NCBI RefSeq assembly: GCF_034627025.1
Contig: NZ_CP141048.1
Span: 2,182,001 to 2,246,000, forward strand
Direction of reading: 5' to 3'
From: Microvirga lotononidis
Lineage (GTDB): Bacteria > Pseudomonadota > Alphaproteobacteria > Rhizobiales > Beijerinckiaceae
DNA length: 64,000 nucleotides
Positions 50,964 through 52,425 of the stretch are shown piece after piece. The stretch's first letter is position 1. Every line of letters begins with the position of its first letter. The position numbers and the translations under genes were made by a program. The notes beneath the pieces are model-generated. The model was not told the DNA's origin, ran no database searches, and worked only from the letters and a program-made list of their open reading frames with translations.

Positions 50964-52079
50964 ATGAAAACAGAACAGATTGCTCTTTCGCCTCTCGCCC
51001 CCGGGGCGAACCTGTCCCTGACGGTTCAGCGCTTCGGACAGGCAGGGGCCCGTCCCCGCATCTACGTCCAGTCCTCGCTCCATGCCGACGAGATTCCCGG
51101 CATGATCGCGGCCCACCACCTGCGCGAGCGCCTGACGGCTCTCGAGGCCGAGGGACGCATCAAGGGCGAGATCGTCCTCGTGCCCGCCGCCAATCCCATC
51201 GGCCTCGCCCAGCGGGTGATGGGGGACCATATCGGCCGCTTCCATCTCGCCGATGGCGTCAACTTCAACCGGGGCTATCCGTACCTCGTCCCGAAAGTGG
51301 CCGAGCGGATCTCTGGCCAACTTACGCAGGACGGCGAGGCGAATGTCCGCCTGATCCGTGAAGCCCTGCGGGCCGAGCTGGAGGCCTGGCAGCCGTCGAA
51401 CGCCGCCGAGGTCATGAAGAAGGCTTTGCTGGGCCTCGCCCAGGAGGCGGACATCGTGCTCGACCTGCACTGCGACTCGGAAGCCGTGGTGCATCTCTAC
51501 ACCCACACGCGCTCGGCCGAGGAATTCGCCCCGCTCTCCGCGCTGATCGGCTCCCATGCCTATCTGCTTGCCGACGAATCGGGCGACGAGCCCTTCGACG
51601 AGGCCTGCAGCCGCCCCTGGGCGGAGCTGGCCGACCGCTTTCCGGATCGCCCGGTCCCGTTCGCCTGCCATTCCACGACCCTGGAGTTCCGGGGCGAGCG
51701 CGACGTGACCCATGAAACCGGCCAAGCCGATGCGGCCGCGATGATCGATTACCTGATCCTGCGCGGCGCCATCGCCGGCGAGATGCCCCAGGTGCCCGAG
51801 GCCCTGTGCCGGGCGACCCCCCTGGCCGCCTCCGAACCGGTGCAGGCTCCGGAGAACGGCATCCTGGTGTTCAGGACCGAAATCGGCACGAAGGTGAAGG
51901 AGGGTGAGGTCCTGGCGGACGTGATCGACCCGCTGACCGGCGCCGTAACCCCGGCCAAGGCGCCTACCGATGGCGTGATGTTCGCCCGGGTCGCCGTGCG
52001 CTTCGCCACGAAAGGCATGCGGATCGCCAAGGTGGCCGGCACCACGGCCAAGCGGACGGGCAAGCTGCTCGGGGCGTAA
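50964..52079 (+). CDS. Succinylglutamate desuccinylase/aspartoacylase-family hydrolase
   Basis: A 371-residue zinc hydrolase of the M14/AstE-AspA group. Zinc ligands appear as HADEIPG (H and E) and the histidine in IVLDLHCDSE; NFNRGYP carries the substrate-binding Asn-Arg. The last 90 residues form a separate beta domain (ENGILVFRTEIGTKVKEGEV) that resembles a lipoyl-like barrel. It removes an acyl group from an N-acyl amino acid or related amide; substrate unknown. The ATG at 50964 has no clear ribosome site. A terminator follows. Confidence 0.9.
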   Translation: MKTEQIALSPLAPGANLSLTVQRFGQAGARPRIYVQSSLHADEIPGMIAAHHLRERLTALEAEGRIKGEIVLVPAANPIGLAQRVMGDHIGRFHLADGVNFNRGYPYLVPKVAERISGQLTQDGEANVRLIREALRAELEAWQPSNAAEVMKKALLGLAQEADIVLDLHCDSEAVVHLYTHTRSAEEFAPLSALIGSHAYLLADESGDEPFDEACSRPWAELADRFPDRPVPFACHSTTLEFRGERDVTHETGQADAAAMIDYLILRGAIAGEMPQVPEALCRATPLAASEPVQAPENGILVFRTEIGTKVKEGEVLADVIDPLTGAVTPAKAPTDGVMFARVAVRFATKGMRIAKVAGTTAKRTGKLLGA

Positions 52080-52154
52080 AGGGAGTGGGTCACACCGGGC
52101 TGACCCTCGTAGCCCTCGGGACGATGCTAGAGATTGGAGCCAGCTCCAGACCAA

Positions 52155-52187
52155 AAAGAAAGGCCGCCCCGAGAGGCGGCCTTTCCA
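52155..52187 (-). terminator. Hairpin terminator, T-tract on the minus strand
   Basis: Eleven-base-pair stem gaaaggccgcc / ggcggcctttc with loop ccgaga. On the minus strand it is followed by CTTTTTGG, a proper U-tract; on the plus strand only TTTCC lies at the stem base. It can end the hydrolase gene but is better placed to end leftward transcription from the small ORF at 52230-52304. Confidence 0.85.
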
Positions 52188-52229
52188 TTGTCGGTTCCAC
52201 GGCCCGCTTAAAGCCGGCCAGTTTGTGCG

Positions 52230-52304
52230 TTACGCACTAATCTCGGCAGAGGCCAAGATCCAGGTCACGGCAACCGGGGACCGTAGGGTATGACAATGAG
52301 ACAC
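52230..52304 (-). CDS. 24-codon ORF with a maximal Shine-Dalgarno
   Basis: Reading leftward from GTG 52304, the ORF encodes a 24-residue peptide containing SHCHTLRSPVAVTW and ending in ASAEISA. The 16 bases just before it (52319 to 52304) are AAAGGAGGTGATCCAG, an exact complement of the 16S rRNA 3-prime tail; the GGAGG core is seven bases from the GTG. The stop codon sits at the centre of the palindrome gtgcgttacgcac (52225-52237), and a terminator with U-tract follows at 52155-52187. The whole transcript would be about 170 nt. No gene follows in this direction, so it is not an obvious leader peptide. Function unknown. Confidence 0.55.
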   Translation of the reverse strand: MSHCHTLRSPVAVTWILASAEISA

Positions 52305-52319
52305 TGGATCACCTCCTTT
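52304..52319 (-). promoter_or_regulatory. Full-length 16S-tail complement (ribosome binding site)
   Basis: Sixteen consecutive bases match the complement of the 16S 3-prime end. Upstream on the minus strand, TTGCTG and TATGGG about 16 bp apart (near 52337-52366) could be a promoter, but this pair is weak evidence. Confidence 0.7.
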
Positions 52320-52425
52320 CGCTGTTGACGGGAAACCCCCATATGGGGTGAGAAGAGCACAGCAAAAGGGCGGGGCGCTGCGGCGTTCTGTCCCCACCGT
52401 CGTTCCCAGAGAATTTTTGACCGCC

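Follow-up and report, generated by a model that had tools for sequence, protein, structure and literature searches.

A CC2171-family RNA of Microvirga lotononidis with an extended Shine-Dalgarno sequence and a covarying imitation of the 16S rRNA tail in its short ORF

The locus and its elements

What does a perfect and unusually long complement of the 16S rRNA tail do in front of a frame of 24 codons that has no gene behind it? The question arose from an earlier note on the window, that is, the whole stretch of 64,000 nucleotides of Microvirga lotononidis that was analysed (contig NZ_CP141048.1, positions 2,182,001 to 2,246,000). The note had described a mini-transcript on the minus strand with a 16-nt exact complement. 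The complement is real, but its length was found to be 17 nt (52320-52304). The elements of the locus are the following.

52304..52320, minus strand: extended Shine-Dalgarno (SD) sequence GAAAGGAGGTGATCCAG, complementary over 17 nt, without mismatch, to the 16S 3' tail
52230..52304, minus strand: ORF of 24 codons, GTG start (52304-52302), TAA stop (52232-52230); length conserved, sequence not
52248..52266, minus strand: 16S-tail mimic GACCTGGATC-TTG-GCCTCT within the ORF, where it spans codons T-W-I-L-A-S; a complement of the SD and the start codon
52292..52298, minus strand: 5' strand of helix P1, CATTGTC (Rfam alignment)
52186..52192, minus strand: 3' strand of helix P1, GACAATG (Rfam alignment)
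52252..52259, minus strand: 5' arm of a rival local hairpin, ATCTTGGC (minimum-energy fold, pair counts); overlaps the mimic
52240..52247, minus strand: 3' arm of the rival local hairpin, GCCGAGAT (minimum-energy fold, pair counts)
52153..52186, minus strand: intrinsic terminator, 13-pair stem and TTTT
52160..52327, minus strand: whole RNA as matched by RF01867 (CC2171), 81.2 bits, cut-off 75
52339..52345, minus strand: CATATGG upstream of the RNA, conserved in 48 Microvirga copies

On the minus strand, GAAAGGAGGTGATCCAG is complementary without mismatch to CTGGATCACCTCCTTTC; each of the five 16S genes of this genome carries CTGGATCACCTCCTTTC at its end, which reads ...CTGGATCACCTCCTTTCTAAGG. 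Six copies of the 13-mer AAGGAGGTGATCC are present in the genome, five in the 16S genes and one at this locus. Within the window, the locus is the sole match to GAAAGGAGGTGATCCAG with up to three mismatches; 0.17 such matches were expected, and a match this loose turned up in 16 of 100 shuffles. The complement runs up to and includes the first base of the GTG, and the gap between GGAGG and GTG is 7 nt, in agreement with the favourable spacing that had been claimed. The 24-codon frame from this GTG was confirmed, as was a terminator behind it in the same direction (stem 52186-52157, then TTTT); the ORF ends at 52230 and the terminator near 52153. A start at an alternative GTG within the SD was rejected, as that frame shows no conserved length.

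No gene follows the terminator, as had been stated: the next long gene-like ORF downstream is convergent and ends at 52079, and its translation reads like a succinylglutamate desuccinylase/aspartoacylase. The divergent neighbour upstream would be prfC (release factor 3), as read from its translation. From its likely ends, the RNA would measure about 175 nt. No consensus match to a sigma-70 promoter was found upstream of it; the conserved CATATGG may possibly belong to the promoter.

Family membership and distribution

The statement that the element is not annotated did not hold for the RNA. The Rfam covariance model RF01867 (CC2171) matched it over its full length (model positions 1-159 of 159) at 81.2 bits against a cut-off of 75, and a scan of the whole genome returned this locus as the only match. 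The feature is a member of this known family, named after a Caulobacter sRNA, and the match includes the SD, P1 and the terminator. P1 (CAUUGUC:GACAAUG) lies before the terminator and is present in the window RNA; in 181 copies, 1157 of 1267 cells were paired, the outer pairs being partly built in, since the presence of AATG or AAGG served to select the 3' strand. The Rfam entry departs from the present reading in two respects: its consensus structure shows no SD-ORF pairing, and it lists the RNA among the sRNAs rather than the small mRNAs.

A copy was found in 48 of 48 Microvirga genomes, which confirms that the complement is not due to chance; 47 of them match AGGTGATCNAGTGTCT, and the 48th (G005) has GGTGGTCCAG. 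In the bacterial family, RF01867 was matched at E ≤0.001 in 137 of 248 genomes, 70 of them above the cut-off. In another scan of relatives, 24 of 61 genomes were above it; the 24/61 and 70/248 figures come from stricter filters, by which weak matches are lost, and relatives often fall below the cut-off. Of the 385 genomes of the class, 36 contain the exact 17-mer AAGGAGGTGATCCARTG, and the exact long SD recurs across several alphaproteobacterial orders and in other phyla. For the comparisons, ten fetched loci without the SD pattern were left out (L193, L200, L201, L202, L270, L275, L276, L296, L298 and L301), and 22 loci were set aside as non-alphaproteobacterial, partly by eye. Conservation in relatives, the check that had been advised, was observed for the SD complement, the start, the ORF length and the terminator, which is consistent with a ribosome-binding mini-transcript that carries a real short ORF.

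In 45 of the 48 Microvirga genomes prfC is adjacent and divergent, and for the other three (L006, L018 and L019) no match was found in the fetched flank. It also stands beside three further copies from named Microvirga records and at only six other loci (L228, L247, L277, L281, L286 and L288). A single syntenic locus for the whole family was rejected on these counts. Four of the 48 Microvirga copies have a 14-codon body beside prfC, and their scattered positions on the prfC tree imply four changes. Two RNA bodies alternate at the Microvirga prfC locus, 14-codon in L030, L308, L310 and L311 vs 24-codon in L305; the bodies differ even between the sisters L305 and L308. A fifth deviating copy (L188/L307) encodes a different, longer peptide. 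By eye, a palindromic REP-like element was seen just after the ORF stop in Microvirga L019, L022, L028, L186 and L190.

A second known class bears on the locus. Hahn and colleagues reportedly described, in RNA Biology in 2017, extended-SD mini-mRNAs named rreB in Bradyrhizobiaceae and rreR in Rhodobacter/Roseobacter. These are said to be transcripts of about 165 nt with a 17-nt SD, a GTG and a tiny ORF, encoding peptides of reportedly 14 aa (rreB) and 18 aa (rreR); association with the 30S subunit, weak translation and a stability that depends on the start codon are also said to be among their properties. In the present set, the ORFs of Bradyrhizobium have 14 codons (VSYTKRCHLAGIAR and variants) and those of Rhodobacteraceae 18 codons, lengths that presumably agree with rreB and rreR. 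The Bradyrhizobiaceae copies scanned (L112, L179 and L291) and the Rhodobacteraceae copies scanned (L137 and L157) were below the CC2171 cut-off. The window RNA resembles rreB/rreR in its 16S-complementary stretch upstream of a short ORF (at least 16-17 nt in that class, 17 nt here), and differs from them in its ORF of 24 codons, unrelated in sequence to the 14 or 18 aa peptides. Since the peptide differs, we place the RNA in CC2171 and describe its mode of action as rreB/rreR-like.

Conservation of the ORF

The length of the ORF is kept and its sequence is not. Among 66 representatives with less than 70% identity, taken from 262 alphaproteobacterial copies, 62 have an ORF of 14-30 codons (mean 14.1 and maximum 25 in 300 shuffled sets), and the other two frames fall in this range in 10 and 14 of the 66; the representatives are still related and hence are not 66 independent trials.

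In the 43 Microvirga copies with a 24-codon ORF, the non-synonymous changes numbered 23 and the synonymous ones 12, with no variant scored more than once in a column, vs 24.5 and 10.5 expected (omega 0.83, p 0.58). The same count on prfC of 44 Microvirga genomes gave an omega of 0.13. Outside the genus, 69, 86 and 78 changes were counted at codon positions 1, 2 and 3 in 44 close pairs, a few of which have nearly identical members in common (the sequences of L171 and L218 are the same). Conservation of the peptide was rejected as an explanation, given an omega of 0.83 and variable sites spread evenly over the codon positions, and the functional micropeptide that the earlier note had considered is not borne out by these counts. 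The ORF seems to be translated, to judge from its kept length, but not for its peptide.

Pairing between the SD and the mimic

The earlier note had mentioned neither the described RNA family nor the counterpart of the SD within the same RNA. The ORF contains an imitation of the 16S tail, GACCUGGAUC-n3-GCCUC, which is complementary to the SD and the start codon. It was pointed to by three Microvirga copies that lack the exact SD. In the 43 Microvirga copies with a 24-codon ORF, the SD variant GATCAAG goes with CTTGATC in the ORF in 6 of 6 genomes, GATCCAG with CTGGATC in 35 of 35, and GATCTAG with CTGGATC, which leaves a G-U pair, in 2 of 2; no mismatched combination at the variant pair was found among them. 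The matched duplexes have energies of -18.0 and -15.6 kcal/mol vs -11.9 and -11.4 kcal/mol for mixed pairs. In one GATCAAG genome, G017, the end of the 16S is still GATCCAG on the opposite strand; the RNA there has therefore lost one base complementary to the 16S and kept its self-complementarity. The same loss is expected in G010, G012, G021, G452 and G454, in whose assemblies no 16S end was found with up to two mismatches. On the prfC tree, the six GATCAAG genomes imply three changes, whether gained or lost, and they may have a single origin.

In L245, a copy of another genus, an A-U pair replaces the C-G at the variant pair, and the remainder of that helix is out of register. L261, L262 and L268 have no CTGG mimic, and L277 combines the SD GATCGAG with CCTGACC.

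The helix was then counted on an alignment (A1) of 96 rows, comprising distinct copies from L001-L030 and L203-L311 with 20-27 codons and a [VM]S[HD] start. In the full helix, SD and start codon (columns 5-21) pair with GACCTGGATC-n3-GCCTCY in 16 pairs, and 88.4% of 1504 cells were paired vs 28.6-53.5% in slid controls. Cells with a two-sided change numbered 9 vs 2.0 in shuffles, and the covariation score was 0.172 vs 0.157 shuffled; none of 500 shuffles was as high in either measure. The shuffles leave relatedness in; slides remove it but favour a structure read from the same sequences. Counted by pairs, two-sided changes in A1 (2 of 16 pairs) did not exceed the shuffles (1.4), and pair 12-72 was unpaired in 43 of the 96 rows. 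Most changes in the helix are one-sided and wobble-safe (U-A to U-G, G-C to G-U), as is expected if the ribosome fixes the SD strand. The comparison of codon with RNA-structure constraint that the earlier note had advised thus gave SD:mimic covariation on the structure side and no amino-acid selection (omega 0.83) on the other.

For the 66 divergent representatives, self-complementarity was also evaluated: the energy of a duplex between the SD and the 103 nt that follow it was set against dinucleotide shuffles. A z below -1.64 was reached by 32 of the 66 (6 of 66 with a reversed-SD probe) and a p ≤0.05 by 28, so that 34 of the 66 do not reach z -1.64. The place of the complement varies. It is coded as W-I-x-A-S codons in many GTG-start Rhizobiales and as E-Q-P-S codons in ATG-start lineages (e.g. 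UGGAGCAGCCUC); it stands in another reading frame in L231, L243, L290 and L145, and appears as CGCCUC in the 14-codon Microvirga allele. In Rhodobacteraceae it lies in the 3'UTR (AACUGGCUCAUCUCCUUG in L121 and L147), and was found there in 16 of 34 unthinned copies vs 2 of 34 with the reversed probe, or 7 of 12 vs 2 of 12 after thinning. Of 30 representatives with a CTGG[AG] motif in the ORF, 8 have it in other frames; some of these, e.g. L038, L068, L078 and L094, may be due to chance.

Two folds and a possible gate

In the nested minimum-energy fold of the window RNA, a local hairpin (52259-52252 with 52247-52240) takes up part of the mimic. It overlaps the SD helix there, so that the hairpin and the full helix are mutually exclusive. 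On A1 this hairpin has 65.6% of cells paired vs 36.7-48.9% slid, and a covariation of 0.288 vs 0.226 shuffled. The best nested fold has -76.4 kcal/mol and the fold with the SD helix forced -71.7, the local hairpin being favoured by 4.7 kcal/mol; the pseudoknot of SD helix and P1 comes to about -80.6 kcal/mol before any penalty. Among five RNAs tried, the SD helix was the best fold in L027 and not in L001, L303, L017 or L024. The covariation of the rival hairpin and the closeness of the energies are consistent with two states, and the alternation, as modelled, would amount to a switch.

A covarying helix over the SD, the mark of SD-masking pseudoknot regulators, was found here by sequence comparison. 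Such regulators include preQ1-type riboswitches and autoregulated ribosomal-protein leaders. The likeness consists in the masking of the SD by a long-range helix lying across a second one, as is predicted for the window RNA. Unlike those leaders, the window RNA has no downstream gene and no known ligand or protein, and its masking strand imitates the 16S tail and sits in the ORF.

We lean, with moderate confidence, towards reading the RNA as a self-gating 30S-binding mini-mRNA of the CC2171/rreB kind, in which translation matters and the peptide does not. The mini-mRNA would capture a 30S subunit by its 17-nt SD, and the short ORF would be translated with the peptide as an incidental product. 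In Alphaproteobacteria the SD and start codon could alternatively pair with the 16S-tail mimic of the same RNA, in a helix that would cross P1 and give a pseudoknot if both form. The closed state would have the mimic paired to the SD; in the open state either the 30S would have captured the SD or the mimic would be folded into the local hairpin. In the window RNA and most copies of the TW type the mimic lies within the ORF, where a translating ribosome would melt it. We infer that the RNA is made and bound by 30S subunits in this organism, and that the SD:mimic helix forms in cells and controls the binding. Its purpose would be to hold, sense or release 30S subunits, and the 30S itself is a candidate for the signal that shifts the two states.

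A bolder version is possible but rather doubtful. It makes the RNA a two-state sensor of free 30S subunits, in which a natural long SD and an anti-SD copy let the ribosome and the RNA itself compete for one strand; this would be an alphaproteobacterial class without conserved peptides, and the extended-SD mini-ORF RNAs of Krumholzibacteriota and Phycisphaerae would be independent parallels to it.

Three other explanations were weighed. According to the first, which we consider unlikely, the RNA is a sponge whose long SD titrates free 30S subunits while the internal complement only tunes affinity. The SD:16S duplex is indeed strong (-32.4 vs -8.7 kcal/mol for one short yardstick SD), and the long SD is found in its exact form in several alphaproteobacterial orders and other phyla; yet an RNA from a single copy would need to be very abundant, the conserved length of the ORF is left unexplained, and some copies mismatch the 16S tail while they stay self-complementary. 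An improbable second explanation takes the mimic for a trans-acting anti-SD sRNA that masks the SDs of other mRNAs and is kept inactive by its own SD. The resemblance of the mimic to the 16S tail itself would fit, as would the Rfam class, but the mimic follows the SD of its own RNA, and this holds for the GATCAAG variant as well as for the start-codon positions. A functional 24-residue micropeptide, strongly translated through the long SD, is very improbable, because the kept ORF length and the motif-like blocks VSHC and TWI-AS are outweighed by the even changes over codon positions, the omega of 0.83 next to 0.13 for prfC, W-I codons that turn L-I together with the SD change, peptides wholly different between lineages and a 14-residue version at the prfC locus of four Microvirga genomes. 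Of the two interpretations in the earlier note, the binding or holding of ribosomes appears the better half.

For the self-gating reading, the RNA family and the architecture of extended-SD mini-mRNAs were known; the covariation of an ORF-internal 16S mimic with the SD, as it emerges from the aligned copies, is what was found here. It joins an orphan Rfam sRNA and a puzzling class of mini-mRNAs in one testable hypothesis, for which GATCAAG/CTTGATC are ready-made natural compensatory variants. If the reading is true, bacteria gate the capture of ribosomes by an imitation of 16S rRNA within the mRNA itself, and the conservation of an ORF does not have to imply a conserved peptide.

Extended-SD mini-ORF RNAs in other phyla

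The exact SD pattern was present in 11 of 150 Phycisphaerae genomes and 9 of 80 Krumholzibacteriota genomes, vs none in either group for a reversed control pattern, and these extended SDs open ORFs of 6-19 codons. A scan with Rfam of 17 of the 20 loci, and of L116, L133 and L177, returned nothing except a tRNA in L316. In total, at least 116 exact-SD stretches were found in 257 billion bases, of which tens are expected by chance, as an estimate; single matches outside Alphaproteobacteria are therefore not to be trusted alone.

In 32 non-alphaproteobacterial RNAs no excess of an SD complement was detected (mean z -0.21), and z was below -1.64 in 4 of them, among which are L330, L331 and L177. 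By this result, the idea that every extended-SD RNA is self-complementary was rejected outside Alphaproteobacteria, and the mimic is thus not essential to the wider kind.

In Krumholzibacteriota (L323-L331), and in L103, the exact extended SD is followed by a GTG mini-ORF with an EVV/EVA motif, which holds a second SD-like stretch, GGAGGTGGYG. A 3' CRCCACC-like stretch able to pair with it was seen in 8 of the 9 Krumholzibacteriota loci and not found in L323; the match is perfect in L327 (GGTGGTG/CACCACC) and in L329-L331 (GGTGGCG/CGCCACC), and the others need G-U pairs. Phycisphaerae (L312-L322, L074, L080, L084, L089, L135, L150 and L159) also have extended-SD mini-ORF RNAs, most of which, by eye, show CGACGG after the stop and a closing hairpin; L312 and L320-L322 are without CGACGG. 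Finally, L133, L116 and L177, from Myxococcota-like and other MAGs, combine the exact SD with ORFs of 14-15 codons, and L177 carries a strong complement, TCGCTGGGTCACCCCG (z -5.0).
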